Source: Streptosporangiales bacterium
Lineage (GTDB): Bacteria > Actinomycetota > Actinomycetes > Streptosporangiales > WHST01
Assembly: GCA_009379955.1 (NCBI GenBank)
Contig: WHST01000044.1
Location: 1 to 45,368 of the forward strand
Reading direction: 5' to 3'
Length of the DNA stretch: 45,368 nucleotides
Below, in pieces: positions 20,166-42,907 of this stretch (within the stretch, counting starts at the first letter, position 1; each line of letters starts with the position of its first letter). The translations under genes were made by a program, and so were the position numbers. The notes beneath the pieces are model-generated. The model was not told where the DNA came from, ran no database searches, and worked only from the letters and a program-made list of their open reading frames with translations.

Positions 20166-20635
20166 GACTCACCCACCGGTCATCCGTGGTCGACGCACTC
20201 CGAACGGCGCCGCCCGCGTCGATCGGGACGCCCTGCTTCGTCCGATGTGGCGTCGTCGTCCCGCAGATCACCACGGTGACCGTCGCGTCGGTCCTGACGC
20301 GGCTCGCCAGGACGGGTGCGGATCTCCTGCGTCGCACGGCAACGCAGGCGTGGCTCACCGCCAACCCCGGGTCCGTCATCGCGTCGCTGACCTTCGGTGA
20401 CTCGGCCTCCGCACTGTTCGCCCTCTGGACCGAGCCCGGACACGGCGAGCCGCGCGAGCCCGTATTGACGCTGCGCGAGTTCCTCGTGGTCGGGACGACC
20501 GGCTCGGTCGAGGGCGCGGACATCACACTGCCGGCGGGTGACGATGTCGACGATGACGTGAGCTTCGAGGCGGCGGTGCGGATCGCCCTCGACACGGGCT
20601 GGTCGAGCTGGTCGTCCGGGGAGGTCCACGCGTGA
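20162..20635 (+). CDS. Small protein resembling a detached Gfo/Idh C-terminal domain
   Basis: A 157-residue soluble protein that I do not recognise with certainty. GTPCFVRCGVVVP, LTRLARTGADLLR, SVIASLTFGDSASALFALW and LREFLVVGTTGSVEGADI follow the order of elements in the C-terminal (substrate/dimerisation) domain of Gfo/Idh/MocA oxidoreductases, but the N-terminal nucleotide-binding domain is missing. The gene directly downstream encodes a complete Gfo/Idh protein. Both junctions are four-base GTGA overlaps, so the small protein is translationally coupled to the transporter and to the oxidoreductase, which suggests a subunit or partner. Composition equals its neighbours, so it is not obviously debris. 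Function assignment is inference. Confidence 0.7.
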   Translation: MRLTHRSSVVDALRTAPPASIGTPCFVRCGVVVPQITTVTVASVLTRLARTGADLLRRTATQAWLTANPGSVIASLTFGDSASALFALWTEPGHGEPREPVLTLREFLVVGTTGSVEGADITLPAGDDVDDDVSFEAAVRIALDTGWSSWSSGEVHA

Positions 20636-22652: not shown

Positions 22653-22665
22653 AGACGAGGCGACG

Positions 22666-26034: not shown

Positions 26035-27166
26035 GAGCGTCCTCGTCGATCTCGATGCCGAGCCCGGGACCGGTCGGGACGGCGACGTATCCGTCCACGG
26101 CTCGGATCGGTTCGCGGCACAGTGTGTCGCGGATCGGGTTCGGCTGCTGGTGCAGCTCGAGCAGGGGAGACTGGTTGAGCGGTGTCGGCGTTCGGCTGTC
26201 GGGGAAGTCCCGCATCGTGGCGAGGAGGTGGAGCGCAGCCGCGAGTGCGATGGGGGTGCTCGACACCACGTGCGGGATGTAGTGGATGCCCCAGGCGTCG
26301 GCCAACGCAGCGATACGTCGGCATTCCGTGAAGCCACCGGCGTTGGCGAGATCCGGTTGGACGATGTCGACGGCCCCGCGAACCAGCAGGTCACGAAAGC
26401 CGAAGCGCGTCCACTCCACCTCGCCGCCGGCGATCGCAAGCCCGAGCGCGGACCGTAGCCGCACGTATCCGTCCAGGTCGGTGCACGGCACCGGTTCCTC
26501 GAACCAGACGACACCGAGGCGGTCCAGCTCCCGTCCGACGCGGAGCGCCGTGTGCACGTTGTACGCTTGGTTCGCGTCGGCCGCGATGACGAACTCGTCG
26601 CCGAGCGCCTCCCGGATGGCCGTGACACGACGGAGATCCTCACGCGGGTGGAGACCACCGATCTTCACCTTGAGCGCCGCGTACCCCTGCGCTCGGTACG
26701 CGAGTGCCTCTTCGACGGCTCGTTCGGGGACGGCCTCGTCCGCGAAGTAGTACGGCCCGCTGGCGTACGCCTGCACGCGATCGCGGTAGCGCGCGCCGAG
26801 CAGCCGCCACAGCGGGAGGCCCAACGCACGCGCCTTGATGTCCCACAGCGCCATGTCGACACCGCTCACAGCCTGCATGACCATGCCTTGGACACCGAAC
26901 GGACTGAAGGACCCGACGACCCGCTGCCACAACTCCTCGACGAGGAACGGATCCTTCCCGTGCAGCACCGGAGCCACCTCCTGAGCCAGCACGGTCGCGA
27001 CCGACCGTTGCGCAGGCCCGCCGCACTGCCCCCACCCGACCACCCCGTCGTCGGTCGTGATCTTCACGACGACCGCCACCCGGGTGGAGTTCATCCGTTG
27101 CGCATAGCCGTATGTCGTATCGAGCGGAGCGCTGAGCGTGAACGTCTCGACCTCGGCGATCCTCAC
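26012..27166 (-). CDS. Mandelate racemase/enolase-superfamily acid-sugar dehydratase
   Basis: A 384-residue enzyme with the MR-type active site complete: KVKIG (K166/K168), metal ligands D197 (AADANQ), E223 (WFEEP) and E249 (AGGEV), and the Asp/His dyad D267 and H299 (IPHVVSS). The spacing closely follows mandelate racemase. Members with KxK and a His general acid/base typically dehydrate acid sugars (mannonate, gluconate, fuconate, galactarate) to 2-keto-3-deoxy acids. The start is a GTG at 27166 behind a strong GGAGGAGG. It follows the uronate isomerase gene by 22 bases on the same strand, which suggests a hexonate or uronate-derived substrate. Exact specificity cannot be read. Confidence 0.9.
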   Translation of the reverse strand: MRIAEVETFTLSAPLDTTYGYAQRMNSTRVAVVVKITTDDGVVGWGQCGGPAQRSVATVLAQEVAPVLHGKDPFLVEELWQRVVGSFSPFGVQGMVMQAVSGVDMALWDIKARALGLPLWRLLGARYRDRVQAYASGPYYFADEAVPERAVEEALAYRAQGYAALKVKIGGLHPREDLRRVTAIREALGDEFVIAADANQAYNVHTALRVGRELDRLGVVWFEEPVPCTDLDGYVRLRSALGLAIAGGEVEWTRFGFRDLLVRGAVDIVQPDLANAGGFTECRRIAALADAWGIHYIPHVVSSTPIALAAALHLLATMRDFPDSRTPTPLNQSPLLELHQQPNPIRDTLCREPIRAVDGYVAVPTGPGLGIEIDEDALSRFVVG

Positions 27167-27188: not shown

Positions 27189-28589
27189 TCACGTCAGCTT
27201 GAAGATGCGCTTCGGGATCCGGTAGGCGAGATCCACGATCGTCTCGGCGGCCTCGTCCAGGGGCAGACGATGCTCGGCGACCAGCTTGGCGAGGAAGGCG
27301 GCGTCGACCCGGCGTGCGACCTCGTGCCGGACCGGGATCGAGCAGAAGGCTCGGGTGTCGTCCACGAAACCGGCGGTGTTGTAGAAGCCCGCCGTCTCGG
27401 TGACGGCCTCCCGGAACCGCCGCAACGCTTCCGGCGCATCCAGGAACCACCACGGCGCTCCCAGGTAGACCGCGGTGCAGCCGCCGGCGATCGGTGCCAG
27501 CTCGCGGTAACAGCTCGACTCGTCCAACGTGTACACCACGAGCGTGAACCGGGGATCGTTGCCGAACTCCTCCACCAGCGGACGCAACGCGTGCACGTAG
27601 CCCGTGGCCTGCGGGATGTCCCCGCCGGTGTCCCGGCCATGCGTCGCGTGCAGCCAGGTGTTGTGATTTCGCACCGCACCCGGATGCAGCTGCATGACCA
27701 TGCCGTCCTCGACGGACATCTGGGCGAACTCCATCAGCATGTGGCCCTGGAACGCCTCCGCATCGTCACTCGACGCCTCTCCGCGCAGACCCCGTTCGAA
27801 GAGGGCCGCGACGTCGGCGGGATCGAGTCTCCCGGTGCGAGCCGTCGGGTGACCATGGTCCGATGACGTCGCACCCGCCTTGACGAATGCCTCCCTGCGG
27901 CGACGGAGCGCGGTGAGATATCCCGCGAAGGTGGAGGTGTCCTCTCCCGCAATCTCGCCGAGCCGGGCGACGCGACCTGACCAACCTGCCCACTCCAGGT
28001 CCACTACGTCATCCGGACGGAACGTCGTGATGACACGCCTTCCCCACCCGTCCGAGGCGAGCGCCGCATGTGCGGCCAGGTCGTCGAGCGGCGACTCGGT
28101 GGTGGCCAGCACCTCGATGCCGAAACGCTCGAACATGGCACGCGGCCGGAAGCTCGACTCGGCCAACCGTGCGGTCAAGGCGTCGTAGACGTCGTCCGCG
28201 CTGCTCGGCCCCAACGGAGTCTCCACACCGAACACGTCGGTGAGTGTCCGCTCCAGCCACAGACGTGAGGGCGTACCTCTGAACAGGTGCCAGTTGTCTG
28301 CGAACGTCCGCCAGATCACCCGCCCATCGGTCTCGACCGGCTCTCCGGTGATGGTCGGCACCCCCAACCCGGCCGGCGGGATCCCCTGCGACAGCAGCAT
28401 CCGGGTCAGGTAGTGATCCGGGGCGATGATCAACCGCGCCGGGTCGGGAAACGACGCGTTGTCGGCGAGGATGGCCGGGTCGACGTGCCCGTGCGGGCAG
28501 ATCAGCGGCAGGTCACGAGCGTGGGAGAACAGCTCCCTGGCGATCCCACGCTGGGTGTGGTCCGCCGGGAACAGCAGGTCCGCGGACAT
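27189..28589 (-). CDS. uxaC: Uronate isomerase (glucuronate/galacturonate isomerase)
   Basis: A 466-residue amidohydrolase-fold enzyme of normal UxaC length. The metal-binding motif CPHGHVDP (H33, H35) follows DLPLI. Typical UxaC stretches are FADNWHLFRGTPSRLWL, ILA-type GIEVLATTESPLDDL, VITTFRPDDVVD, MQLHPGAVRNHN and FCSIPVRHEVARR. UxaC converts D-glucuronate to D-fructuronate or D-galacturonate to D-tagaturonate, the entry step of uronate catabolism. ATG 28589 is preferred over an upstream in-frame start at 28664 because the latter would overlap the operator at 28624-28637. First gene of the leftward unit controlled from the LacI intergenic region. Confidence 0.93.
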   Translation of the reverse strand: MSADLLFPADHTQRGIARELFSHARDLPLICPHGHVDPAILADNASFPDPARLIIAPDHYLTRMLLSQGIPPAGLGVPTITGEPVETDGRVIWRTFADNWHLFRGTPSRLWLERTLTDVFGVETPLGPSSADDVYDALTARLAESSFRPRAMFERFGIEVLATTESPLDDLAAHAALASDGWGRRVITTFRPDDVVDLEWAGWSGRVARLGEIAGEDTSTFAGYLTALRRRREAFVKAGATSSDHGHPTARTGRLDPADVAALFERGLRGEASSDDAEAFQGHMLMEFAQMSVEDGMVMQLHPGAVRNHNTWLHATHGRDTGGDIPQATGYVHALRPLVEEFGNDPRFTLVVYTLDESSCYRELAPIAGGCTAVYLGAPWWFLDAPEALRRFREAVTETAGFYNTAGFVDDTRAFCSIPVRHEVARRVDAAFLAKLVAEHRLPLDEAAETIVDLAYRIPKRIFKLT

Positions 28590-28623
28590 TCGACCCCTAC
28601 CCTTCTCCGGTGCAGGCGCGCGA

Positions 28624-28637
28624 TGCAAAGGCTTGCA
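28624..28637. promoter_or_regulatory. LacI-type operator O1 (uronate isomerase side)
   Basis: TGCAA-AGGC-TTGCA: a 14-bp inverted repeat with perfect five-base arms, 35 bases upstream of the uxaC ATG. It repeats exactly the arms and spacing of the site at 28774-28787. The position fits repression of the leftward isomerase/dehydratase unit. Confidence 0.7.
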
Positions 28638-28763
28638 GCGAGAGCAAATCATCAAACCCGTCACGTGGTCAACAGCCCGAACGTCTCGCGCAACATGTCG
28701 CTACATGCCCTGAAACCACTCATTTCGATGAGATCGACGACGGAGGGAGTGCTGACTCAGGTG

Positions 28764-28792
28764 TTGACATGACTGCAAGGGTTTGCACTAAT
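28764..28792 (+). promoter_or_regulatory. Promoter of the LacI regulator/importer operon
   Basis: A perfect -35 box TTGACA (28764-28769) and ACTAAT (28787-28792, four of six) are separated by 17 bases. The operator TGCAA-N4-TTGCA lies precisely between the two boxes, so a bound repressor would block RNA polymerase. The lacI-type GTG is at 28828. Confidence 0.65.
28774..28787. promoter_or_regulatory. LacI-type operator O2 (autoregulatory)
   Basis: TGCAA-GGGT-TTGCA: the same half-sites and the same four-base spacing as the site at 28624-28637, with centres 150 bp apart. It sits inside the promoter spacer upstream of the LacI-family gene, which implies autoregulation and control of the downstream importer and hydrolase-like genes. 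Confidence 0.75.
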
Positions 28793-29900: not shown

Positions 29901-31175
29901 ATGAAGACAAGGCCGCTTCTGGGGCTTCTCACGGCCCTCATCCTGGTGGCGTGCGGCGGATGCGCAGGCGAATCCGCCGATGCCGACGACCCCGTCACGT
30001 TGTTCCTTCCCACCGGCACCTTCGAGCGCTCGATGCTCCCCATCCTCGATGCGTTCACGAAGGAGACCGGCATCAAGGTGGAGCCGATCGCCGTCCCGGC
30101 CGAGGACGCACGGTCGCGCCAGGTGCTCGACATGAACACCGGCAAGGGCGACGTCGATCTGGTGCTGCTCGACGACACGGCCTGGATGGGCGAGGTGGTG
30201 CACAACCTCCAGCCGCTCGATGACCGCATCAAGAGCGACGACGTCAAGGTCGACGGCTACATCCCCGCGCTGCTCGACATCTTCGAGTCCGAGGGCAAGC
30301 AGTACGCCTTCCCGCTCGGGCTGAGCAGCCGTTCGCTGATCTATCGTGCGGACCTGTTCGAGAAGGAGGGACTCGAACCGCCGAAGACCTGGCAACAGTT
30401 CTACGACTACGCCGAACGCTTCACCAAGGGCGACATGTACGGCTTCGCCGGTCCGTGGGGCAGGACCACCACCTACGTGTCGGTGTGGCAGTTCATCGCC
30501 CGCAACTACGGGCTCGACGGGGTCATCGACGAGAAGGCCAAGAAGCCGCTGTTCAACTCCGAGGCAGGCATCGCCGCCGGCGAGCTCATGGTCGACCTCT
30601 ATCGCAAGAAGCTGATGCCGCCGGACTCCATCGAGTTCGACCACGATGCCACCGTGGGCGCGATGCGTAAGGGACGTGCCGCCATGGCAATTCTCCCGAG
30701 CACCTACATTCCGGAACTCAACAAGGAGGATGCGTCACCGTACGCGGGAGAGTTCAAGTACGCCCTCGCGCCCACCCTGAACTCCGGCATGGAGGACAGC
30801 TACGTCGTGACCGGCTGGGGATACGGGTTGTCCAAGATCTCCGACAACCAGGACAACGCCTGGGAACTGATGAAGTACCTCAACAAGAAGTTCCAGACTC
30901 CCGGTGACGACGCCACCAAGGAGCAACTCAGGAGTCCCAACTCCGAGGCGGCGTTCGCACACCCCATGGCCAAGGAGATCTTCCCTGACGGCCAGGAGAA
31001 ACTGGTCAAGGAGGCCCTCGGCCGGGGACACGCCAGACACGGCATCCCAGAATGGGTCGAGATCGAGAACCTGATCGCGGACGTGTTGTCGCGCGCATTC
31101 CTCGGGAAGACCACCGTTGCCAAGGGTTTCGCCGAGATCGATCCCAAGGTACGGAAGATCCTGGCGGAGTCGTGA
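29901..31175 (+). CDS. Sugar ABC transporter substrate-binding lipoprotein
   Basis: A 424-residue extracellular solute-binding protein (family 1). The signal peptide ends in a lipobox LVAC (C18). Characteristic segments are VTLFLPTGTFERSMLPILDAF, DVDLVLLDDTAWMGE, YAFPLGLSSRSLIYRADLFEK and AGELMVDLYRKKLMPP, ending with a conserved ALGRGHARHGIPEW stretch. It captures an oligosaccharide or glycoside for the two permeases that follow. ATG at 29901 behind GGAGG. Ligand not predictable; context suggests a uronic-acid-containing glycoside. Confidence 0.93.
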   Translation: MKTRPLLGLLTALILVACGGCAGESADADDPVTLFLPTGTFERSMLPILDAFTKETGIKVEPIAVPAEDARSRQVLDMNTGKGDVDLVLLDDTAWMGEVVHNLQPLDDRIKSDDVKVDGYIPALLDIFESEGKQYAFPLGLSSRSLIYRADLFEKEGLEPPKTWQQFYDYAERFTKGDMYGFAGPWGRTTTYVSVWQFIARNYGLDGVIDEKAKKPLFNSEAGIAAGELMVDLYRKKLMPPDSIEFDHDATVGAMRKGRAAMAILPSTYIPELNKEDASPYAGEFKYALAPTLNSGMEDSYVVTGWGYGLSKISDNQDNAWELMKYLNKKFQTPGDDATKEQLRSPNSEAAFAHPMAKEIFPDGQEKLVKEALGRGHARHGIPEWVEIENLIADVLSRAFLGKTTVAKGFAEIDPKVRKILAES

Positions 31176-31212: not shown

Positions 31213-32145
31213 ATGACGGTGACCACCGACGCCGCTCGGAGAACCGAGGGCAGGTCGGTCTCTCCCAAGGTGCCATGGTGGCGGCACAAGAACACCCTTG
31301 CGTACGCTCTCGTCGCGGTACCACTCGTCGTTCTCGCCATCGCGCTGCTGCTCCCCGTGGGGTTCAACGCCTGGGTGAGCCTGCACTCGTGGTCACTGGT
31401 GGACCAAGGCGGGCCCAAGTTCATCGGCCTGGGCAACTACGAGCAGATCTTCACCGATCCTCGCTATCGCGGGACCGTGCTGCGGACCTTCGTCTTCGTC
31501 GTCGGCACCGTCGGAGTGCAGCTGATCGTCGGATTCGCCATGGCCCTGTTCCTCAACCGGCACTTCCGCACGCTCAAGGCGCTCCGCACCGTCCTCCTCC
31601 TTCCGATGATGGTGTCGGAGGTCGTGGTGGGGATGGCGTGGCGGTACATGTACGAGTACAGCGGCGGCGCCCTCAACTGGTTGCTGAGTCTGGTAGGACT
31701 CGGTCCGGTCCATTGGCTGGGACCGGACCTCGCCCTGCTCAGCATCATCTTCGCCGATGCGTGGTCCAACATCCCCTTCGTCACCCTGATCCTCTTCACC
31801 GCCCTGCAGACGGTACCCAGGGACATCCTCGACGCCGCCGCCGTCGACGGGGCTCAACGGTGGACCCGCCTCCGACACGTGATCATCCCCATGGTGCAAC
31901 CGGCGATCCTGGTCGTGCTGATGTTCCGCACGATGTTCGCCATCCGCGCCTTCACCCTCGTGTGGATCCTCACCGAAGGCGGGCCGGGCGGTACGACGAA
32001 CCTGATCGCCATCGACGTGTACAAGTCGGCCTTCAGCAACTACAACCTCGGGCTGGGCGGCGCCCTGTCCTGGGTGCTGGTCGCCATCAGCCTCGTCATC
32101 GCCATCCTCTACATCAGGTGGTTGAACCGTGAGCCGCTCTACTGA
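31213..32145 (+). CDS. Sugar ABC permease, MalF/UgpA-like
   Basis: A 310-residue permease with six hydrophobic segments and a charged N terminus. The ATPase-contacting EAA loop is visible as VPRDILDAAAVDGAQRWTR followed by LRHVIIPMVQPAI. LRTVLLLPMMVSEVVVGMAW and ILTEGGPGGTTNLIAIDVY are typical of CUT1 sugar importers. It pairs with the next gene product in the membrane. It starts 37 bases after the binding-protein gene. Confidence 0.93.
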   Translation: MTVTTDAARRTEGRSVSPKVPWWRHKNTLAYALVAVPLVVLAIALLLPVGFNAWVSLHSWSLVDQGGPKFIGLGNYEQIFTDPRYRGTVLRTFVFVVGTVGVQLIVGFAMALFLNRHFRTLKALRTVLLLPMMVSEVVVGMAWRYMYEYSGGALNWLLSLVGLGPVHWLGPDLALLSIIFADAWSNIPFVTLILFTALQTVPRDILDAAAVDGAQRWTRLRHVIIPMVQPAILVVLMFRTMFAIRAFTLVWILTEGGPGGTTNLIAIDVYKSAFSNYNLGLGGALSWVLVAISLVIAILYIRWLNREPLY

Positions 32146-32992
32146 CATCGCGAACGACCCCACCATCCGTGGCGGGCCCAGCAGGGTGTTCGCCTACGTC
32201 CTCGTCGGCGGCATGGTCGTAGCAGCTGTGCTGCCGCTCGCGTGGCTCGTGCTCCTCAGCGTGACGCCACAGAGTGTCATCAACCGGCGCACACCGGCCG
32301 TCTTCTTCGAGCCGACGCTGGCGCACTTCCGTGAGATCCTCGCCGGACAACGCTCGACGATCGTGCTCTCCCTGGCCAACTCGCTCATCGTCAGCGTCGT
32401 GTCCACTGTCGTGGCGGTGGTCCTGGCCGCGTTGTGTGCCTATGGACTGGCGAGGCTTCGACCGCCCGGGCACCGTTTCATCAGCCTGCTCATCCTCGCG
32501 GGGCGCCTGCTGCCGCCCGTCGCACTCATGGTGCCGATGTACATCGCCGCGACTCAGACCGGCCTGTTCGACACACGCACCGCACTCATCATTCCCTACA
32601 TCGCCCTGAGCCTTCCACTGGCGACGTGGATGCTCCAGGGATTCTTCATGGACCTGCCCAGGGAGCTGGAGGAGGCCGCACTCATCGACGGCTGCAATCG
32701 GCTGACGGCGTTCGTCAGGGTGATCCTCCCTCTCGCCGGGCCCGGTATCGCGGCGGCGAGCATCTTCTCGTTCATCCTGGCGTGGAACGACATGGCGATC
32801 GCACTCACCCTGACGTTGACCGACGCGGTCACCCTGCCTCCGTTCGTCTCTCAGGTCAGAGCCGAGGAGGGAATCATGTGGGGTCAGCTGGGTGCCATCA
32901 CCGTCTTCATCATGGCGCCCGTTCTCCTCCTCTCCTTCCTCGTCCAGCGATGGATCGTCGGTGGGCTCACCGGCGGCGCCACGAAGGGGTGA
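32129..32992 (+). CDS. Sugar ABC permease, MalG/UgpE-like
   Basis: A 287-residue permease with six membrane segments. The EAA loop reads LPRELEEAALIDGCNRLTAF, then VRVILPLAGPGIAAAS. SVVSTVVAVVLAALCAYGLAR is also typical. The GTG start overlaps the preceding gene by 17 bases. No ABC ATPase gene follows: CUT1 systems of actinobacteria often share one MsmK/MsiK-type ATPase encoded elsewhere, and that is the likely case here. Together with the binding protein and the first permease it forms the uptake arm of the uronate locus. Confidence 0.93.
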   Translation: MSRSTDIANDPTIRGGPSRVFAYVLVGGMVVAAVLPLAWLVLLSVTPQSVINRRTPAVFFEPTLAHFREILAGQRSTIVLSLANSLIVSVVSTVVAVVLAALCAYGLARLRPPGHRFISLLILAGRLLPPVALMVPMYIAATQTGLFDTRTALIIPYIALSLPLATWMLQGFFMDLPRELEEAALIDGCNRLTAFVRVILPLAGPGIAAASIFSFILAWNDMAIALTLTLTDAVTLPPFVSQVRAEEGIMWGQLGAITVFIMAPVLLLSFLVQRWIVGGLTGGATKG

Positions 32993-33049: not shown

Positions 33050-34702
33050 GTGCAGAACTATGAGACGCGTGCGCTCGAGATCCACAGCGACCTGATGTGG
33101 CGGGAGGAGGAGATCCGCCACGCGCTCGATCTCATCGAGAGATACGAGATGAACGCGCTCATCCTGCACGAACCCGACCTGCTCAACCGGATGACCTATC
33201 CGCGTCGCTACTTCACGCCCAACTCCGCCTGGGGTGCGGCTCCGCCTCGACGCGGCGAGAATCTCATCCTCAACACCACGGCCTACATGCGCAACGTGAT
33301 GGCACAGTGTCGTCGACGCGGCATCGACTTCTTCCTGAACCTCAAGGAGCTGGCGTTTCCTGACGAGTTCATGGAGATCGCTCCGGACGTGATCGTCGAC
33401 GGGAAGGTGTGCCCCACCCATCCCGCATGGGCCGAGCTCATCGACGCCAGGTACACCGACCTCTGCGAGGATTATCCCGACCTCGCCGGCGTGATCGTCA
33501 GTGTCGGCAGCCCCGAGGGTCGCGCCACTCTCTCCTCACGAAAGTGCGGCTGCGAGCGCTGTGCCGGCACCGATGCCGCCGAGTGGTACCGATGGATCAC
33601 CGAAGGCCTCTCCCGCCCACTCGCCAAGGCGGGTAAGAGGCTCGTCGTCCGCGAGTTCTCGTACCTTCCCGCGGATCAGGACGCGGTCGTGGCAGGACTC
33701 GCCGATCTGCCCGCGGACATCGAGTTCGCAGTGAAGCCCTACGCCAGGGACTACTACCCCACCTATCCGGACAACCCGGCGCTCGCCGCGCTGCCGGAGC
33801 GCCGTCGGTGGCTGGAGTACGACGTGAACGGGCAGTACTTCGGCTGGGGAGTGTTCCCCTGCCCCGTCGTCGACGACCTGCGTCATCGGCTCACCCGCGG
33901 GCTCGAGGTCGGTGCGACGGCCGTGCTGCTGCGGACCGACTGGGAACGAATCAACGACCTCACCGCGCTCCACAACGTCAACGGCCTCAATCTCGCCGCG
34001 GGCGCCCTCCTCGCGCGGCACCCAGAGACTTCACCGGTCGACGCACTCGCGCGCGCTCTGGAGCAGACGAACATCGTCGATCCCAGCGTCGATCCCGAGG
34101 TACGCCTGCAGGTCGCCACCACCCTGCTGGGTCTATGGCCGGTCGTGGAGAAGACGCTCTACATCCAGGGGTTCGTCTACAACGACTCCAGTCGCATCCC
34201 CAATGGCGTCGACCATGCGTGGTGGGTGTTCGCGGAGAACCACAATCTCGACGACTGGGACCCAGGCGCGGCCGCACGCATCGACGTCAGTGATCCCGAC
34301 GTCACCGCCGCGATGCTGACCGAGAAGGATCGGGGACGCGCCGACCTTCTCCGCCTGGTGGCCGAGATCAGGGACTGGATCACCCTGGGAGTCCTGCGGA
34401 TCCCCGACGTGTACCGGCTCGGCGACGTCGCCGGTTTCATGGCGACCTACATCGAGGAGTTCGTCGCCAGCGGAAAGATCACCATCCTGGTGCGGGCCGC
34501 TCAGCGTCGAGACGGAGGGATCACCGGCCAGGAACGGGAGTCCCTCGCGGCCGAGACCACCGTGCTTCGCGACGTCATGGCACGGACGGAGCGACAGCGG
34601 ACGGTCGGTGCCCACACGCACCACGTCGGGCAGCTCCTCGACACCGCACGGATGGAACGGATGATCGCAGATGCCGAGCAGGTGCTCGCGGAGGAGAAAT
34701 GA
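33050..34702 (+). CDS. Predicted GH67-like (alpha-glucuronidase-related) protein, paralogue 1
   Basis: A 550-residue protein without signal peptide, so intracellular. I do not recognise it as a named family. Several stretches line up with GH67 alpha-glucuronidases as I remember them: CPTHPAWAELIDARY with PDLAGVIVSVGSPEG (Glu156, cf. SEG carrying the acid), VKPYARDYYP (Asp234, cf. VKNGPIDFQP) and WLEYDVNGQYFGWG (Glu256, cf. EFQITQEYLG), then a DWERI...NGLNLAAG segment. It adds a Cys motif C-x-C-x2-C (166/168/171) not typical of GH67, perhaps a metal site. It begins 57 bases after the sugar permease and overlaps its paralogue by four bases. The fold call is inference; DUF4838-type glycosidase-like proteins are an alternative. 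Confidence 0.8.
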   Translation: MQNYETRALEIHSDLMWREEEIRHALDLIERYEMNALILHEPDLLNRMTYPRRYFTPNSAWGAAPPRRGENLILNTTAYMRNVMAQCRRRGIDFFLNLKELAFPDEFMEIAPDVIVDGKVCPTHPAWAELIDARYTDLCEDYPDLAGVIVSVGSPEGRATLSSRKCGCERCAGTDAAEWYRWITEGLSRPLAKAGKRLVVREFSYLPADQDAVVAGLADLPADIEFAVKPYARDYYPTYPDNPALAALPERRRWLEYDVNGQYFGWGVFPCPVVDDLRHRLTRGLEVGATAVLLRTDWERINDLTALHNVNGLNLAAGALLARHPETSPVDALARALEQTNIVDPSVDPEVRLQVATTLLGLWPVVEKTLYIQGFVYNDSSRIPNGVDHAWWVFAENHNLDDWDPGAAARIDVSDPDVTAAMLTEKDRGRADLLRLVAEIRDWITLGVLRIPDVYRLGDVAGFMATYIEEFVASGKITILVRAAQRRDGGITGQERESLAAETTVLRDVMARTERQRTVGAHTHHVGQLLDTARMERMIADAEQVLAEEK

Positions 34703-36369
34703 AGACCCGCGCGCTCGAGCTGCATGCCAGTAGCAACATCTGGAACCCGGATGGCCTGATCGAGGTCCTCGATCTCATGGCCGACATAGATCTCAACACC
34801 CTGGTCATTCACGAGATCGGCATCATGGAACGTCTGGTCTATCCGGGCAGGTTCTTCGGTGCCGGCGACGAGCCGGGCATCCACCACCGCTACCGCAGCA
34901 CGTTCCGGGACCTCTACCGGCTCGACCCGGTCAGGAGGTCGCGGCCGTACCAGCACCTCTCCTTCATGCGCTGGCTTGCCCGCCGCGCCGCGGAACGGGG
35001 AATCGCGCTCTTCCTCAACAACAAGGAGCTGTCGTATCCCGACTCCCTGTTCCGGCTGCGCCCGGACCTCATGGTCGACGGTTCACCCTGTCCCACCGCA
35101 CCGGGGTGGATCGAGTTCCTCGAGACCAAGTACGACGAGCTGTTCACCGACTTTCCCGAGCTCGCCGGGACGATCACCTCTCCCGGCACCGGGGAGAGCC
35201 GGCTGTCCTTCTCGGCCGGATGGTGCTCGTGCGACCGCTGCGGACGTACCGACCCCTCTGATTGGTATGCAACGGTCATCGACGCGATACACAAGGTCGC
35301 CACGCGGCACGCGAAGACGTTGGTGGTACGCGACTTCGTCTTCACGCGCTCGTCGCAGGATGCACTCGCCGACGGCCTGCGCGGGTCGTCCGACGACATC
35401 GTCATCTGCCTCAAGAACACGCCGCACGACTACTATCCGACCTTTCCCGACAATCCCAGGATCGGCGAGATGGGCGCACACCCCCAGTGGGTCGAGCTCG
35501 ATGCCATGGGGCAGTACTTCGGTTGGGGCATCGCTCCGGCGATCATGACCGAGGACATCCGGCGCAGGCTCGATCACGCCCGTGCCAACGGAGTGGACGG
35601 CGTGTTGGTGCGGATCGACTGGGAAGGACTCGAAGGACACAGCGCGCTTCGAACGTTCAACGCGCTCAACATCCACGCCGCCGCCGCCCTCGCTGCCGAT
35701 CCGAGCACGCCCACCGACCTCATCTACCGATCCTGGGCGACGTACAGCCGGGCCGTCCACGAGGACGCGACGCCCGAGGTCGCCGACGGTGCGAGGGCAT
35801 GGCTGCGGGACCTGCTCGAACGGACCTGGCCGGTGACCGCCAAGACCCTCTACGCACATGACTGCGTCTTCAGCGATTCGAGCCAGTTCCCGGTCTCCAT
35901 CGATCACGCCTTCTGGCTCGCCGAGGAGAAGAACAGCCTCCGCGACTGGGATCCCTCCAAGGAGAACGCGCTCTCACCGGACCCCGGCAACATCGAGCGC
36001 CTCCTCGAGGAGAAGCGGCAGGCCGTCCGCGACGTCGCGGACCTCGCCGCCAGAGCCGACGAGGGCCATCCCGGTCTGAACGTGGACTGGCATGCCGAGC
36101 TCCGACGGCGCTTCCGCGTCTTCCAGGAGTACGTCGGCGCCTTCGAGCTCGCCGCGCGGGCCGTCTTCACTGGACGTCATGTCCGGGACGCCGATGACAT
36201 CGACCCTCACCTTCTCGCGGAGGCGCGTGCCGCGGTGCGCGAGATGCGGGAGGTCGTCGACCGCCTCCGGCGCGACGGTCTTGCCGACTGGCACCCCGCC
36301 GCCGCCGTCCTCAGCGCCGACCGTCTCGAATGCCTGAGGGAGGACGTGGCCAAGGCGATCGACCGGTGA
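34699..36369 (+). CDS. Predicted GH67-like (alpha-glucuronidase-related) protein, paralogue 2
   Basis: A 556-residue intracellular paralogue of the preceding protein, collinear over the full length. Shared landmarks are LFLNNKELSYPD, the CPTAPGWIEF helix with PELAGTITSPGTGES (Glu166), the Cys motif C-x-C-x2-C (176/178/181), LKNTPHDYYPTFPDNP (Asp244) and WVELDAMGQYFGWG (Glu266). The same three acidic positions are kept, so both copies look potentially catalytic, but the loops around the first acid differ. A heterodimer or two hydrolases with different linkages are possible. ATG at 34699 overlaps the previous stop (ATGA). It ends the LacI-controlled operon. No signal peptide. Confidence 0.8.
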   Translation: MKTRALELHASSNIWNPDGLIEVLDLMADIDLNTLVIHEIGIMERLVYPGRFFGAGDEPGIHHRYRSTFRDLYRLDPVRRSRPYQHLSFMRWLARRAAERGIALFLNNKELSYPDSLFRLRPDLMVDGSPCPTAPGWIEFLETKYDELFTDFPELAGTITSPGTGESRLSFSAGWCSCDRCGRTDPSDWYATVIDAIHKVATRHAKTLVVRDFVFTRSSQDALADGLRGSSDDIVICLKNTPHDYYPTFPDNPRIGEMGAHPQWVELDAMGQYFGWGIAPAIMTEDIRRRLDHARANGVDGVLVRIDWEGLEGHSALRTFNALNIHAAAALAADPSTPTDLIYRSWATYSRAVHEDATPEVADGARAWLRDLLERTWPVTAKTLYAHDCVFSDSSQFPVSIDHAFWLAEEKNSLRDWDPSKENALSPDPGNIERLLEEKRQAVRDVADLAARADEGHPGLNVDWHAELRRRFRVFQEYVGAFELAARAVFTGRHVRDADDIDPHLLAEARAAVREMREVVDRLRRDGLADWHPAAAVLSADRLECLREDVAKAIDR

Positions 36370-36558: not shown

Positions 36559-37599
36559 ATGAGGGCAGCCGGCCACGAGTCACAGCTCACTCGGCGTCAG
36601 TTCGCGCAGATCACGGGCGTGGCGGGCGTGGGTCTGCTCGCCGGGGCCTGCGGAGGGTCCGGTGGAGGAAACGGCAAGCTTCCCACCGTGCACATCCAGG
36701 CCCTCGACGGCGGGATGTCGGCGCTCTCGCTCCGGGTGATCGAGGAGGAGGGCTTCGACGAGGCGCACGGGTTCAAGGGCGACTTCCAGTATGTCTCGGC
36801 GGATGCGTCGGCCCAGAACTTCCTCGGCCACGAGAGCGACGTCGCGTTCGACATCGGCCCGCCCGACATCGGCGTGATGAAGAGCAAGGGCAACGACGTC
36901 GTCATGTTCTCGGGCAACACCAAGAACCATCTCCGGATCATCACCCGTGCCGACGCCCCGTTCGAGTCGATCGACGATCTGGTGGGTCGCAAGGTCGGCC
37001 ACTACGGCGACGACTCCACCGGCACGCTGTCGCTCTCGATGCTGCTCGATCAGTATCACGACGGACTGAGCTTTCAGAAGGACTTCCGCCTGGTACTGGC
37101 GGCACCCGCGGCCCTGGTGCCCCTGCTCGCCTCCGACCAGGTCGACGCGATCCTGAACTTCGAGCCCAACATCAGTCGAGCCACCCAGACCGTGAAGGGC
37201 GGCATCAAGGAGGTCTACGACCTTGGCGCGGAGTGGGAACGACACACCGGTGGCACCCTCTGGACGACGACGGTCGGCGCGTTCCGCGGCTGGCTGACGA
37301 AGAACCCCCGGCTCGCGAAGGCCGTGCTCGCCGCGTGGGGCGACGCGGCGAAGGTCCTGAACGCCGATCCGGGCAAGATCGTCGCCGACCGCGCATACAA
37401 CGATCTGCTGGGTCTCCGTGGTAAGGGGCTCGAGACGTTCACGACCTACCTCGAGAAGCGCAAACTGTTCACCACCGGCCTCACGCCAGAAGAGGCGAGC
37501 AACATCGGAACCTTCCTCGAGCTGATGGCGAAGCAAGGCACCCTGTTCGACAAGGCACCCCGGCATGTGGCCGAGCCACTCGACTCGCTCCTGAAGTAG
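36559..37599 (+). CDS. ABC substrate-binding lipoprotein, SsuA/TauA/NMT1-like
   Basis: A 346-residue receptor. The N terminus carries a twin-arginine motif (TRRQF, R12-R13) and a lipobox LAGAC (C31), indicating a Tat-exported lipoprotein. The mature part follows the SsuA/ThiY/NMT1 class: GGMSALSLRVIEEEGFDEAHG, DVAFDIGPPDIGVM, DDLVGRKVGHYGDDSTGTL and VDAILNFEPNI. Relatives bind sulfonates, nitrate, thiamine precursors or aromatic carboxylates. The enzymes encoded downstream favour an aromatic or heteroaromatic acid. First gene of the operon reaching to 45118. The ribosome-binding site at 36559 is weak. Confidence 0.92.
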   Translation: MRAAGHESQLTRRQFAQITGVAGVGLLAGACGGSGGGNGKLPTVHIQALDGGMSALSLRVIEEEGFDEAHGFKGDFQYVSADASAQNFLGHESDVAFDIGPPDIGVMKSKGNDVVMFSGNTKNHLRIITRADAPFESIDDLVGRKVGHYGDDSTGTLSLSMLLDQYHDGLSFQKDFRLVLAAPAALVPLLASDQVDAILNFEPNISRATQTVKGGIKEVYDLGAEWERHTGGTLWTTTVGAFRGWLTKNPRLAKAVLAAWGDAAKVLNADPGKIVADRAYNDLLGLRGKGLETFTTYLEKRKLFTTGLTPEEASNIGTFLELMAKQGTLFDKAPRHVAEPLDSLLK

Positions 37600-37605
37600 A
37601 CGTCC

Positions 37606-38418
37606 ATGACCACCGACGCGAGGACGCAGGGCGGATGGTCGCGTTCGAAGGTCCTCCTCCGCGCGCTCCCGGTCGTGTCCGTGCTCGTCATGGTCCTGCT
37701 CTGGACCGTCGTCTACCGGTTCACGGTCTTTCTGCCGTCACCGAGCGAGGTCACGTCGGCGGCCATCGAGATCGTGAGCGATCCCGCCACCTACGGCCCC
37801 GTGTTGAGCTCCCTGGTCCGCCTGGTCATCGGCATCGGTGTCGGCATGATTGCGGCACTCCTGCTCTGTCTCGCGGGAATGCGCAGCAGCTTCGTGCAGG
37901 CGATGGTCAGAACATACGTCCGGATCGCCATCGTGGTGCCGAGCCTGTTGCTCGCACTCCTCGGCCTGGTGATCCTCGGCACCACGACCTGGAGCGCCGT
38001 CCTCATCGTCGCGGTGCTCGTGTTCCCGTTCGCCGCGGTACCGATGCAGGACGGGCTCCGGTCGTTGGAGGGCGCCCATCTGGAGGCCGCGCACGTCTAC
38101 CGGTTCGGCCGGGCCAGGACGATACGCCACGTCGTCCTGCCGCACATGGCTCCGTACGTCTTCTCGGCCATTCGCAACTCGCACGCGCTCGGGTGGAAGG
38201 TGCTCATCGTCGCCGAGATCTTCGCGGTGCGATCAGGGATAGGTCACGAGTTCCAGAGAGCGTTCGACCTGTTCGACATCGCTCGCGTCGCCGTCTGGTT
38301 GATCGTCTTCCTCGCCATCATCGCCGTCATCGAGTACGGCGTTCTCGAGATCGTCGAGCGACGGGTCTTCCGATGGCGACCGGGCAAGCACCGCGAGCAG
38401 CTCGTTGCGGCCGGCTGA
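37606..38418 (+). CDS. ABC permease, SsuC/TauC-like, subunit 1
   Basis: A 270-residue permease with about six membrane segments. LPSPSEVTSAAIEIVSD at the outer face and the cytoplasmic EAA loop SLEGAHLEAAHVYRFGRART, then IRHVVLPHMAPYVFSAI, are diagnostic for the BPD permease group of sulfonate, nitrate and aromatic acid importers. The sequence HALGWKVLIVAEIFAVRSGIG also fits. It starts six bases after the binding-protein gene. A second, different permease follows the ATPase gene, so the transmembrane part is probably a heterodimer. Confidence 0.92.
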   Translation: MTTDARTQGGWSRSKVLLRALPVVSVLVMVLLWTVVYRFTVFLPSPSEVTSAAIEIVSDPATYGPVLSSLVRLVIGIGVGMIAALLLCLAGMRSSFVQAMVRTYVRIAIVVPSLLLALLGLVILGTTTWSAVLIVAVLVFPFAAVPMQDGLRSLEGAHLEAAHVYRFGRARTIRHVVLPHMAPYVFSAIRNSHALGWKVLIVAEIFAVRSGIGHEFQRAFDLFDIARVAVWLIVFLAIIAVIEYGVLEIVERRVFRWRPGKHREQLVAAG

Positions 38419-38450
38419 CGACAACGTGCGCGACCACTCGGGACGGGAAC

Positions 38451-39245
38451 ATGTCTGAGAAATACGTCGAGGTCCACAACCTGACAACGTGGTATGACCC
38501 GGCTGTGCCCATCCTCGAGGACGTCAGCTTCGAGATCGGCAGCGGAGAGTTCATCTGCGTACTCGGGCCCAGTGGGTGCGGCAAGTCCACGCTGCTGGCC
38601 ACGCTCAGTGGCCTGAAGCCTCCGCAGGCCGGACGCATCCTCGTCGACGGCGAGGACATCTACGACCGGCAGGCATCGCTTCCCCGTCTCGGTTACGTCT
38701 TCCAGGACCACAGACTCCTGCCGTGGCGCACCGTCTCGCAGAACATCTCGCTCGCGCTCGACGCCGCCGGCGTGGCATCCGAGGAGCACGAGGACATCAT
38801 CAGGACCTACCTCGACGCGCTCCAGATAGGTTCGTTCCACGACGCGTGGCCGCTGAACCTCAGTGGCGGTCAACGCCAGCGTGCCTCCATCGCCCGAGCC
38901 ATGGCGATCGATCCCGACTACCTGTTGATGGACGAGCCGTTCAGCACATTGGATGAGCTCACGGCGCGTGAGCTCCGCGACGAGCTGCTCAGGATCTGGG
39001 AGGCGTCGGGGAAGACGATCGTCTTCGTCACCCACTCGGTGCACGAGGCCATGTTCCTCGCCGACCGCATCTTCGTCCTCAGCACCTACCCCGGCCGCCT
39101 GTACCGGACGATCGACGTGAACGTGCCCCGCGTGCGCTCGCACGAGGACGTCGACCTCGCCAAGCTGGAGGCCAGCGTCATCGAAGACCTGCTCGTCGAG
39201 TGGGGGCAGAAGGGCGCCCCGGCCCCGGAACGGGAATCGACGTGA
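38451..39245 (+). CDS. ABC transporter ATPase, SsuB/TauB-like
   Basis: A 264-residue ATPase. Walker A GPSGCGKST, Q-loop VFQDHRLLPWRTV, signature LNLSGGQRQRASIARAM, Walker B YLLMDEPFSTLDE and H-loop VFVTHSVHEAMFLADR are all present. The Q-loop HRLLPW and the THSVHEA motif mark the nitrate/sulfonate/taurine subgroup. It drives the two flanking permeases. The ATG at 38451 follows a 32-base gap after permease 1. The next permease GTG overlaps its stop by four bases. Confidence 0.94.
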   Translation: MSEKYVEVHNLTTWYDPAVPILEDVSFEIGSGEFICVLGPSGCGKSTLLATLSGLKPPQAGRILVDGEDIYDRQASLPRLGYVFQDHRLLPWRTVSQNISLALDAAGVASEEHEDIIRTYLDALQIGSFHDAWPLNLSGGQRQRASIARAMAIDPDYLLMDEPFSTLDELTARELRDELLRIWEASGKTIVFVTHSVHEAMFLADRIFVLSTYPGRLYRTIDVNVPRVRSHEDVDLAKLEASVIEDLLVEWGQKGAPAPEREST

Positions 39246-40084
39246 GGACCACCGACGTGCGGGAGCGCGAAGCGGACCCGCCGAACGTGACGGTGCCCCG
39301 TCGCCGGGTGCGCGACCTCACCACCCGCCTGGTGCCACGCGACTCGTTGGCGGCGGTGGTCGCGGTCCTGTCGATCGTCGTCGCGTGGTACCTCGTCGCC
39401 GCGGCCGTACCGCGCCTTCCGGTACCGACCGAGACCCTGGGTGCGGCGGCCCGCATCCTCGCCGACCCGAGCTCCTACGTTGACGTGCTCTCGACGCTGC
39501 GGCGTGTCGCCATCGGCTTCGTCGCGAGCACGATCCTGGGAGTCGTCATCGGTGTGGCCATGGGCAGCTCACCGTGGTGGCAAGGGGTGCTCAAGCCGTG
39601 GGTGCTGGCCGCGCTGGCGGTCCCCGGGCCGGTCGCCATCATCTTCGCCACATTGCTCATCGGCATCTCGGAGCTGAGCGTCCTCATCGCCCTCGTGTTC
39701 ATCGTGACGCCGTACGCGTCGAACATCCTCGTCAGTGCCGTCGCCGGACGGGATCACTCGCTGGAGGAGATGGCGTACGTCTTCAAGTTCACGTCGATGA
39801 AGCGTTTCCGTCACGTGGTCCTGCCGCAGCTGCTGCCGGCACTGTTCGCGGCGATGCGCACGTCGTTCGCCCTCTCCTGGAAGCTGGTCGTCGTCATCGA
39901 GGCCGTCGGTGCGAGCCGCGGCATCGGGACACAGATCAGTCGCAGCTTCCGCCTGCTGGACGTCGCCTCGGGCATCGCCTGGGCCGCGCTGTTCGTGATC
40001 GTCATGTGGCTGATCGACGCGATCGGGTTCCAGCGAGTCGAACGACACCTGTACCGGTGGCGGTCAGGGACGAGGGTGGCATGA
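39242..40084 (+). CDS. ABC permease, SsuC/TauC-like, subunit 2
   Basis: A 280-residue permease with a charged cytoplasmic N terminus and about six membrane helices. EAA-loop: DHSLEEMAYVFKFTSMKR, then FRHVVLPQLLPALFAAM. SWKLVVVIEAVGASRGIG matches the same family as permease 1 but the two proteins are clearly different. The GTG at 39242 overlaps the ATPase stop and is preferred over an upstream in-frame start at 39200 within the ATPase gene. Its stop overlaps the molybdenum hydroxylase ATG by four bases, which ties transporter and enzyme production together. Confidence 0.92.
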   Translation: MRTTDVREREADPPNVTVPRRRVRDLTTRLVPRDSLAAVVAVLSIVVAWYLVAAAVPRLPVPTETLGAAARILADPSSYVDVLSTLRRVAIGFVASTILGVVIGVAMGSSPWWQGVLKPWVLAALAVPGPVAIIFATLLIGISELSVLIALVFIVTPYASNILVSAVAGRDHSLEEMAYVFKFTSMKRFRHVVLPQLLPALFAAMRTSFALSWKLVVVIEAVGASRGIGTQISRSFRLLDVASGIAWAALFVIVMWLIDAIGFQRVERHLYRWRSGTRVA

Positions 40085-42405
40085 GCGGCGCCGACTACCC
40101 GGCTCCCCATGCGGTCGGACAGGCCCTCCCCCGTGAGGACGGCTACGAGAAGGTCACCGGTCGCGCGATGTTCGCCGGCGATGTCAGGCTGCCGGGAATG
40201 CTGGAGGCCGCCGTCGTGCGCAGCCCGGTTCCCAAGGGTGTGATCAGACGGATCGACGTCGAGGCCGCGTTGGCGACCCCGGGCGTCCACGCCGTGCTCA
40301 CCGCGGCCGATCTGCGCAAGCCTCCCGTCGGATGCACCGACACCAGGTACGGCGTGGTGATCCGCGACAGACCCATCCTCGCCGAGGACCGCGTCACCTT
40401 CGCCGGCGAGCCGGTCGCGGCAGTGGTCGCCGACACCCGGCAGCTGGCTCGATCGACAGCGCTCGCGGTGACCGTCGAGATCGAGGCGGAGGAAGCAGCA
40501 CTCACGCTCGACGACGCACTGCTTCCACACAGTCCACTTGTCCATCCCACGGGGTTCGAGGTCGAGGATGCCGTGTACTCCTCGCCCCTGCCGCTCACCT
40601 TCGGTGAGTCGAACACCGGGCTGGTGTACGAGACGTCCCGCGGCGACGTCGACGCCGCACTTCGCGACTGCGCCCGCACCTTCGAGGGCACCTACCGGTT
40701 CCCGGCCGTCTACCAGTACGCGATGGAGCCGTTCACCGTGGTCGCGAAGACGGTGGAGGACACCATCACGGTGTGGTCGCCGGCGCAGCACCCGTCGCAG
40801 GTGACGCGTGACCTGGCCCGCCTGTTCGGTGTCGGCGTCAACGACGTGCGGGTCTCCGTGCCGTTCGTCGGCGGAGGCTTCGGGAGCAAGTCCTTCACCC
40901 ACATCGAACCGCTCACGGTCGCGCTGTCGCGTGCCGTGGGACGCCCGGTGCGCCTGGAGTTCGACGTGTCCGAGGCGATGACCGTCAGCCGCCGGCACAA
41001 CGCCCTCGCCCGGATCCGCTCGGGCGTGGACGAGGACGGCGACATCGTCGCCTACGACCTGGACATCTCCTACGACACCGGCGCGTACACGCTTCTCGGC
41101 CCGTACGTCGTGGCCAAGGGTGTCTTCCGAGGCCTGGGCGCGTACGACTTCCCGCACTATCGGGCTCGTGGACGGTTGGTCTTCACCAACACGTCTCCTG
41201 CCGGCTCGATGCGCGCGGTCGGTGGCCCGCAGGCGGCGTTCGCCCTCGAGTCACACCTGGACGAGATCGCCGTGGCGCTCGACCTCGATCCGGTCGAGAC
41301 ACGTCGCCGCGTCGTCGCACGGCGCGGAGCCGAGTTCAGGGCCGGCCGTACCCCCATGGACGCCGACATCTCCGAAGGCCTCGACTCGCTGGAGCGACTC
41401 GCACGAGATCTCGACACCGGCACCCCTTCGCAGTCGCGCCAACGGTTCGGCACGGGGTTCGCCATGGGGGTGGCCGATCCGGGAGCATCGCCGGTCTCGA
41501 CGGCGGTGCTGCGGTTGGCCGCGGACGGGTCGCTGACGGTCGCGGTCGGGAGCACCGAGATCGGTCAGGGCGTCCGCACCGTCATGCGTCAGATAGCGGC
41601 GGACGCACTCGGGGCTCGCTACGACGACGTCACCGTGACCCCGACCGACACGGGTCACGGTCCGTACGACGCGTCCACCGGAGCCAGCCGGTCGACCTCG
41701 ATGTCGGGTCTCGCCGTGTACCGCGCGGCTTCCGGCATTCGCGCGCGGTTGGTGCGGGCGGCAGGTGACGAGTGGGACTGCTCCCCCGACGACGTCGTCG
41801 TCCACGAGGGAGTCGTGACCGGCCCCGGCGACCGTGCCAGGCCGATGGAGTACTTCGTCCACCGGCACTTCGGCCAGAACGGTGGGAACTTCTACGGAAT
41901 CGGTGAGGTGACGGGAGGCGAGTTCGCCACGACACCCGCGTTCTGGGAGGTCGGTGCGGGTACCGCGAGCGTGAGCGTGGACACGGACACCGGCCAGGTG
42001 CGGCTGATCGGCTATGCCTCGGTGGCGGACGTCGGCAAGGCCGTCAACCCGCTGCTCCTCGCCGGCCAGGAGCACGGTTCGGTGGTCCAGGGCATCGGTC
42101 ACACCCTGTACGAGGAGCTGGAGTGGGATCAGGGGCAGCTCGCCAACGACTCCCTGCTCTCCTACCGGGTGCCGCGGACGACGGATGTCCCGGAGAGCTT
42201 CGCCGAGGCGTTCATCGAGAACGGCGACGGCCCGGGCCCGTACGGCGCGAAGGGCGCGGGTGAGGGCGGCATCCTCCCCGTCGGAGCCGCGATCGCCAAC
42301 GCGGTGTACGCCGCCACGGGCGCGCGCCTGCGCGAGCTCCCGCTGACACCTGAGCGCGTATGGCGGGCACTCCGAGACCTGGACGGAGCCTCGGATGAGC
42401 GCTGA
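40081..42405 (+). CDS. Xanthine-dehydrogenase-family Mo hydroxylase, large (Mo-cofactor) subunit
   Basis: A 774-residue catalytic subunit. It has the N-terminal ald/xan hammerhead domain (GYEKVTGRAMFAGDVRLPG, ITV-type AVVADTRQLA), then the Mo-pterin domains with GGGFGSK (264-270), MRAVGGPQAAFALESHLDE and STEIGQGVRTVMRQIAAD. The C terminus shows GAKGAGEGGILPVGAAIANAV, with the catalytic Glu728. Such enzymes hydroxylate aromatic or N-heteroaromatic rings, aldehydes or acyl-CoA thioesters using water. The partner 2Fe-2S and FAD subunits are encoded at 42395 and 44294. The ATG at 40081 overlaps the permease stop; the 3' end overlaps the Fe-S gene by 11 bases. Substrate unknown. Confidence 0.94.
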   Translation: MSGADYPAPHAVGQALPREDGYEKVTGRAMFAGDVRLPGMLEAAVVRSPVPKGVIRRIDVEAALATPGVHAVLTAADLRKPPVGCTDTRYGVVIRDRPILAEDRVTFAGEPVAAVVADTRQLARSTALAVTVEIEAEEAALTLDDALLPHSPLVHPTGFEVEDAVYSSPLPLTFGESNTGLVYETSRGDVDAALRDCARTFEGTYRFPAVYQYAMEPFTVVAKTVEDTITVWSPAQHPSQVTRDLARLFGVGVNDVRVSVPFVGGGFGSKSFTHIEPLTVALSRAVGRPVRLEFDVSEAMTVSRRHNALARIRSGVDEDGDIVAYDLDISYDTGAYTLLGPYVVAKGVFRGLGAYDFPHYRARGRLVFTNTSPAGSMRAVGGPQAAFALESHLDEIAVALDLDPVETRRRVVARRGAEFRAGRTPMDADISEGLDSLERLARDLDTGTPSQSRQRFGTGFAMGVADPGASPVSTAVLRLAADGSLTVAVGSTEIGQGVRTVMRQIAADALGARYDDVTVTPTDTGHGPYDASTGASRSTSMSGLAVYRAASGIRARLVRAAGDEWDCSPDDVVVHEGVVTGPGDRARPMEYFVHRHFGQNGGNFYGIGEVTGGEFATTPAFWEVGAGTASVSVDTDTGQVRLIGYASVADVGKAVNPLLLAGQEHGSVVQGIGHTLYEELEWDQGQLANDSLLSYRVPRTTDVPESFAEAFIENGDGPGPYGAKGAGEGGILPVGAAIANAVYAATGARLRELPLTPERVWRALRDLDGASDER

Positions 42406-42907
42406 CCCCCGCAGCCACGAGGTTCCGATCGCGTGTGCGGTGAACGGCCGTACCGTCGAGCTGACCGTGCAGGCGCACGAGCTGGCCATCGACGTCATCA
42501 GGGACACGCTCGGACTCACGGGGACGAAGCGGTCCTGCGACGTCGAGGTGTGCGGGGCCTGCGCCATCCTCGTCGACGGTCGCACCGTGAGCTCGTGCAC
42601 GACGCTCGCTCTCGAGCTGGACGGGCGTCAGGTGCGCACCATCGAGGGTCTGGGCAACCCCGACGGCACGCTGCACCCGCTGCAGCAGTCGTTCCTCGAT
42701 CACGGCGCGCTCCAGTGCGGATTCTGCACGGCGGGCTTCCTGCTGACCGCCCACGAGCTGCTCACCGACGGCGTGCGGGAGCGGGAGGAGCTGCGCGAGG
42801 CATTGGAAGGAAACATCTGTCGCTGCACCGGGTACGTCACGATCATGGACGCCGTGGTCGCCGCAGCCGACAGCATGGACCGAGCCGACGAGGGAAGGCA
42901 CACATAG
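42395..42907 (+). CDS. Mo hydroxylase small subunit, two [2Fe-2S] clusters
   Basis: A 170-residue electron-transfer subunit. The plant-type ferredoxin cluster is bound by C48, C53, C56 and C68 (SCDVEVCGACAILVDG). The second cluster, in the helical C-terminal domain, is bound by C108, C111, C142 and C144 (LQCGFCTAGF and NICRCTGYVTI). The usual CxxGxCGxC reads SCDVEVCGAC, the same spacing. It passes electrons from the molybdenum site to the FAD subunit. It overlaps the large-subunit gene by 11 bases, and its TAG shares one base with the next GTG. Confidence 0.95.
   Translation: MSADPRSHEVPIACAVNGRTVELTVQAHELAIDVIRDTLGLTGTKRSCDVEVCGACAILVDGRTVSSCTTLALELDGRQVRTIEGLGNPDGTLHPLQQSFLDHGALQCGFCTAGFLLTAHELLTDGVREREELREALEGNICRCTGYVTIMDAVVAAADSMDRADEGRHT

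Follow-up and report, generated by a model that had tools for sequence, protein, structure and literature searches.

The gene pair and its operon

The stretch of DNA analyzed here (the window) spans positions 1 to 45,368 of contig WHST01000044.1 from a Streptosporangiales bacterium, and encodes two adjacent proteins, famI and famII, which represent a candidate for a new family, its members most likely being intracellular uronidases that act as a pair. The two open reading frames are located on the same strand and overlap by four bases; the first has a GTG start and the second an ATG start, and the encoded proteins are 36% identical over 454 columns (E 4e-90). Neither protein shows a signal peptide, to judge from barrel strand 1, which in the structural models already starts at residue 6 (famI) or 3 (famII). 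The pair closes a same-strand run that consists of a LacI-family regulator gene and the genes for the binding protein and two permeases of a sugar importer, with the glucuronate isomerase gene uxaC in divergent orientation. An earlier note on this DNA had described two collinear paralogues of 550 and 556 amino acids with a four-base overlap and no signal peptide, directly behind a sugar importer, and on all these points our analysis agrees with it. The features of the locus are as follows.

33050 to 34702, + strand: famI, clade I 550-aa barrel protein; invariant E156, R201, K229, D234, E256, D258, Q262, C121 and C166-x-C168-x2-C171
34699 to 36369, + strand: famII, clade II 556-aa barrel protein; invariant E166, R211, K239, D244, E266, D268, Q272, C131 and C176-x-C178-x2-C181
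28828 to 29880, + strand: LacI-family regulator gene (lacI), first gene of the operon (Pfam and NCBIfam models)
29901 to 31175, + strand: family 1 solute-binding protein (SBP_bac_1) of the ABC sugar importer (family model)
31213 to 32145, + strand: ABC importer permease 1 (BPD_transp_1; family model)
32129 to 32992, + strand: ABC importer permease 2, assigned by BLASTP grouping with genes in the same place of related loci only, no family model
27189 to 28589, - strand: uxaC, glucuronate isomerase (524.7 bits, cut-off 387)
26012 to 27166, - strand: MR/MLE (enolase superfamily) protein, sugar-acid-dehydratase-like, 22 bases from uxaC and under all NCBIfam equivalog cut-offs
28774 to 28787, no strand: palindrome resembling a LacI-type operator, preceding lacI and the importer-famI-famII operon
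28624 to 28637, no strand: second palindrome resembling a LacI-type operator, about 35 bases ahead of the likely uxaC start

The start of uxaC was set at M26 of the open reading frame 27189-28664 (position 28589), where the match to the family model begins. With up to two mismatches, the operator motif has three strand matches in the window, all at the two palindromes (0.04 expected). Across the whole genome (6.6 Mb, 225 contigs), a degenerate pattern derived from both palindromes has matches at these two sites and nowhere else, and its reversed control has none; given that the two sites are recovered by construction, the result is that nothing else was found. To judge by these sites, a single regulator very probably serves both uxaC and the importer-famI-famII operon, and we infer that it is the LacI protein encoded by the operon itself. 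Control of the pair together with a uronate isomerase, which the earlier note had only surmised, is now backed by the two palindromes.

Ahead of the MR/MLE and uxaC genes, the window encodes a MocA-type oxidoreductase, a 2-hydroxyacid dehydrogenase, an APH-type kinase and an enolase (20632-26034). The region downstream of the pair (36559-44265) seems to be a locus of its own; it encodes an NMT1-type binding protein and an ABC ATPase, followed by molybdopterin dehydrogenase subunits and a UbiD-type decarboxylase. Elsewhere in the same genome (G000:C10:4576-5523, L014), a true GH67 gene was identified (468.8 bits); its reading frame opens with a twin-arginine-like stretch (detected by eye), so the encoded enzyme is probably exported, alongside the cytoplasmic pair.

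Relationship to GH67 and DUF4838

Both proteins fall under the cut-off of every Pfam and NCBIfam model. For the Pfam GH67 model, famI gives no match and famII scores 10.5 bits (cut-off 23.5); the GH67 middle-domain model is touched by 4 of 19 family members (best E 0.023), and the DUF4838 model (PF16126) by one of the 19 (E 0.038), without reaching the Pfam cut-off. Matches of famII to the GH97 and Sorb models (E 0.018 and 0.099) were under the cut-off and were set aside, as were the dehydroquinase and other phmmer matches in PDB (E 0.72 or worse). When the 19-member profile was compared with PDB sequences, the top match was a GH67 alpha-glucuronidase, with a whole-sequence E of 4e-4 summed from two weak stretches, in which K-N-x-P-x-D and E-x5-(Q/E)-Y-x-G are aligned. 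This family-profile search gave no match to GH115, and none of the profiles A3, A6 and A7 matched GH138 among PDB sequences up to E 10.

Alignments were then compared with hhalign, each comparison representing one single pair of alignments. The family matches a GH67 set (n=5) with probability 78 (E 1.8e-5), a DUF4838 set (n=6) with probability 94 (E 1.4e-7) and an intermediate unnamed set (n=10) with probability 100 (E 2.6e-42), and the unnamed set in turn matches GH67 with probability 96.6 (E 6.3e-10). The hhalign scores are 52 for GH67 and 69 for DUF4838. As controls, the barrels of MR/MLE and UxaC reach 17.3 and 18.3; the highest score among 90 column-shuffled alignments is 25.1 and among three reversed ones 21.9, whereas the real alignments give 52.2, 65.2 and 331. 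Profile comparison thus puts the pair in the GH67/DUF4838 superfamily. Three of the six sequences in the DUF4838 set were run against Pfam, and all three pass. DUF4838 itself was sought in the genome that carries the pair (0/1) and in the genomes of 11 relatives (0/11), with no match. The unnamed set (L057-L061, L048-L050, L052 and L053) comprises larger proteins of 581-1028 amino acids, placed between the family and GH67; by eye, these lack the C-x-C-x2-C motif, and of the five run against Pfam, three pass the GH67 C-terminus model only and two pass none.

The AlphaFold2 models (mean pLDDT 89.1 for famI and 92.0 for famII) consist of eight barrel strands followed by a helical C-terminal domain. 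In both cases, GH67 is the top structural match by Z: 24.1 for famI (root mean square deviation 4.0, 435 residues aligned) and 22.9 for famII (3.9, 428 aligned). The runners-up are GH20C (21.5) and GH138 (20.8, 494 aligned) for famI, and GH138 (20.9, 483 aligned) and GH20 (19.9) for famII; by Foldseek E-value, GH67 also leads for famI. The N-terminal GH67N domain is absent ahead of the barrel, model residue 1 being aligned with GH67 residues 139-152. For GH115, the best Foldseek E-values are 6.5e-6 (famI) and 5.9e-8 (famII).

Compared to the characterized GH67 enzymes (Geobacillus AguA, 1k9d/1mqq, and Cellvibrio GlcA67A, 1gqi), which provide the best Z and the best sequence match, the pair shares the barrel with a helical C-terminal domain, the acid Glu after strand 4, the Arg ending strand 5, K-x4-D after strand 6 and the E386 equivalent in strand 7. 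Unlike GH67, it has no N-terminal domain, carries Gln at the E392 position and an extra set of four cysteines, and stays below the Pfam cut-off. Plain GH67 membership was therefore rejected: several features that define GH67 were looked for and are not present in the family, which accordingly is not filed under that name. Like the pair, DUF4838 proteins contain C-x-C-x2-C followed by a P-S-D-W-Y-like stretch and preceded by an upstream Cys (5 of 6 in the sampled set, by eye), the four-Cys set being an observation on the sampled sequences and not a curated definition; unlike the pair, proteins of this type bear long N-terminal extensions. Literature searches on GH138, new uronidase families and GH67-like terms returned no paper on the family, and absence from print or from CAZy is not claimed.

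Conserved residues and the candidate active site

The first of three conserved acids (E156 in famI, E166 in famII) comes after PDLAG or PELAG, the second (D234/D244) lies within VK/LK-x4-DYYP and the third (E256/E266) within W(L/V)E-x-D-x2-GQYFGWG, with C-x-C-x2-C at 166-171/176-181. An alignment of 21 rows (famI, famII and 19 relatives) shows no variation in the three acids or in the cysteines. In the full set of 28 members, E166, R211, K239, D244, E266, D268, Q272, K109, E110, R305, W308, E309 and four cysteines (famII numbering here and below) are the same in all members, whereas H9, H38, N321 and N324, invariant in 19 of 19, differ in one or two members of this larger set. At its end, each of the eight barrel strands has polar residues that are invariant or nearly so.

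In the alignment to 1k9e (GH67 numbering as printed by the PDB sequence search), K239 corresponds to K359, D244 to D364, E266 to E386 and Q272 to E392. Across a one-residue gap, E166 aligns with the Glu of the GH67 (D/N)SEG motif; the Arg in WRAF is the counterpart of R211. We take E285/E292 to be the GH67 general acid after strand 4 (E292 appears in the title of 1h41), and D364/E392 (D365/E393) are the presumed GH67 base candidates. To judge by the alignment, the family thus retains one candidate GH67 base, with Gln fixed at the other. This Gln is also present, by eye, in a Pelagibacterium relative, and in the 21-row alignment in two L007 copies outside the 28. As discussed in PMC4599007, a pair of carboxylates in GH67 binds the nucleophilic water and the base is hard to assign.

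Gln in 28 of 28 members versus Glu in 10 of 10 of the unnamed sister set and 5 of 5 of the GH67 set could signify a changed reaction, for example phosphorolysis that yields a uronate 1-phosphate, or hydrolysis that is slow and accompanied by transfer. We consider this improbable, given that D244, the other candidate base, is retained and that the substrate of UxaC is a free uronate and not a phosphate ester. In GH130, phosphorylases have basic phosphate-binding residues where hydrolases have carboxylates, which would fit such a change, but a single Glu-to-Gln substitution in a GH130 hydrolase, as described in the same source, lowered activity only 30- or 200-fold (PMC4599007). In GH115, the other family of xylan alpha-glucuronidases, the GH67 core fold is common but the active-site residues differ (PMC3879575), and therefore a changed catalytic residue does not exclude activity.

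C131 and C176-x-C178-x2-C181 align with the cysteines of DUF4838, and this four-Cys set was not found in GH67; the four invariant cysteines are probably the ligands of a structural zinc. The earlier note had located the three acids and C-x-C-x2-C correctly, and had remarked that it did not know the latter from GH67. It had matched the acids to three GH67 motifs; the motif alignment holds and two acids match the catalytic set, whereas the third is the equivalent of E386 and the Glu of QEY (E392) is Gln. Its suggestion of a new alpha-glucuronidase-related family stands insofar as the pair is GH67-like by profile comparison and predicted fold, which is not unrelated to the GH67 barrel, is related to DUF4838 and is unnamed in Pfam and NCBIfam, but it does not extend to GH67 membership.

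Distribution, gene neighborhoods and proposed function

A scan of genome contigs yielded 11 loci, to which more copies from those genomes and two additional genomes from the class of [Clostridium] asparagiforme were added. The resulting set draws on 14 genomes and has 28 members, of which 27 are complete and one (L076 1-1515) is truncated N-terminally by a contig end. The two L007 copies, in which bases are masked or the frame is shifted, do not figure in A3, the tree or the total of 28; also dropped were a partial L077 copy, which stops short of the Gln site, and a G452 fragment of 82 residues at the end of a contig. According to the record titles, the hosts include Jiangella asiatica, [Clostridium] asparagiforme, a Hungatella, spirochaetes, an Accumulibacter and Acetobacteraceae. 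In the phylum sample, the family was found in one of 396 genomes and in the order sample, as close relatives, in one of 345, in both cases the genome analyzed here, with distant relatives in six more genomes of the order. Close members were present in 3 of 391 genomes from the class of [Clostridium] asparagiforme (that genome included; 14 more had weaker matches), and only in the starting genome in the class of an Acetobacteraceae genome (1/367) and in the Jiangella family (1/22). Since these wider samples brought few relatives, the family looks rare.

In the maximum-likelihood tree, clade I (with famI; 7 members) has support 100, clade II (with famII; 15 members) 91 and clade III (6 members) 46. 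Clade II, which is over-represented by design because famII was the scan query, co-occurs with clade I or III in all 8 genomes of the tree that have several members; the other 6 have a single one. Tandem duplicates often include an inactive copy, so one or both proteins might be ligand sensors or inactive paralogues. This appears highly improbable, considering that both paralogues retain the Cys set and all candidate catalytic residues except for the shared Gln, and that clades I and II are each found in Actinobacteria and Proteobacteria.

A distant relative in Klebsiella aerogenes (L079:7995-9654, two overlapping frames; 24% identical), which adjoins rhiN and polygalacturonase genes, has Asp, Arg and Arg at the E166, D244 and Q272 positions and lacks the Cys motif. 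A 4-kb Pelagibacterium plasmid record (L080:1-4050), which may be an assembly fragment, contains an unannotated family member spanning the record start, followed by a GH43 gene with a beta-xylosidase-type C-terminal domain and an SDR gene.

Besides the window, 16 loci were examined, several of them cut by contig ends. Among the 16, only the Jiangella locus (L001, 514.5 bits) has uxaC, next to a clade II gene; together with the shared operators, this bears out the link to uronates drawn in the earlier note. Tripartite Tct importers take the place of ABC importers in three loci (L005, L010 and L075). The spirochaete locus L010 additionally encodes a 3-dehydro-L-gulonate 2-dehydrogenase (355 bits, cut-off 316) and a galactarate/altronate-dehydratase-type protein recognized by Pfam but below the NCBIfam cut-off. 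Taken together, the neighborhoods point to plant oligosaccharides that bear uronic acids, be they glucuronides or galacturonides.

On the basis of homology, predicted fold, residue invariance, gene order and the operator-like sites, we consider it reasonably probable that famI and famII are cytoplasmic exo-uronidases of an unnamed family within the GH67/DUF4838 superfamily, which act on imported oligosaccharides and feed UxaC. The LacI-controlled ABC importer would take up short oligosaccharides bearing an alpha-linked uronic acid. The pair probably represents two specificities, such that famI and famII, differing in linkage or aglycone preference, would free the uronate; UxaC would then isomerize the product, on which the dehydratase-like MR/MLE enzyme may act in turn. 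By analogy with GH67, E166 (E156 in famI) would protonate the leaving oxygen, and R211 and K239 would line the uronate site. Because the second GH67 base position is occupied by Gln (Q272/Q262), D244 (D234 in famI) would activate water alone. A more far-reaching version, a new GH-like family in which one water-activating carboxylate of GH67 is fixed as Gln, uronoside cleavage is changed (single-Asp base, transfer or phosphorolysis) and the two partners have a metal-held loop, strikes us as improbable.

The system that the pair and its operon most resemble appears to be the aldouronate utilization cluster of Paenibacillus sp. JDR-2, in which an ABC importer feeds intracellular enzymes, among them GH67 and GH43, for imported glucuronoxylan oligosaccharides (PMC4765114). 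Unlike the window, with its two paralogues of an unnamed family and one regulator shared with uxaC, that cluster includes a GH10 xylanase along with a true GH67.

Several observations weigh against the exo-uronidase assignment. The family has no member of established activity, the genome already carries a GH67, and Gln is invariant at the second GH67 base position. Only two of 17 loci (the window and the 16 others) have uxaC, whereas an SDR gene adjoins a family gene in 7 of the 16, following or separating family genes in L002, L003, L004, L005, L009, L075 and L077 (a grouping in which six of the seven were checked). The best single stretch of the PDB match to GH67 has an E of only 0.21. Among folds, GH138 ranks first, ahead of GH67, for famII by Foldseek, and GH20/GH84 come nearly as high as GH67 (Z 17.6-21.5); given such small margins in Z, the chemistry cannot be read from the fold alone.

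The two proteins might be alpha-galacturonidases acting on pectin or gum fragments, and not glucuronidases acting on xylan fragments, UxaC taking both uronates; we regard this as possible, although less probable than not. GH138 (BP0997), which we take to be a galacturonidase and whose structure title refers to an enzyme targeting rhamnogalacturonan II, shares the fold of the pair over both domains and, among the matches listed, aligns over 479-494 residues compared to 423-452 for GH67, in addition to its rank in Foldseek; yet it has no sequence match to the pair, and the profile matches are to GH67. Likewise, the galactarate/altronate-dehydratase-type protein close to the L010 family gene and the surroundings of the Klebsiella relative favor galacturonides, but that relative has diverged at three key positions and in the cysteines, and the Pelagibacterium relative is accompanied by a beta-xylosidase-type GH43.

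The pair adds to a superfamily in which few uronidase branches are characterized; its family, unnamed and probably catalytic, also links DUF4838 to GH67. The natural, invariant Glu-to-Gln change at a debated catalytic-base position makes the assignment of the GH67 base directly testable, and the layout of operators, importer and uxaC makes the class of substrate both guessable and testable.

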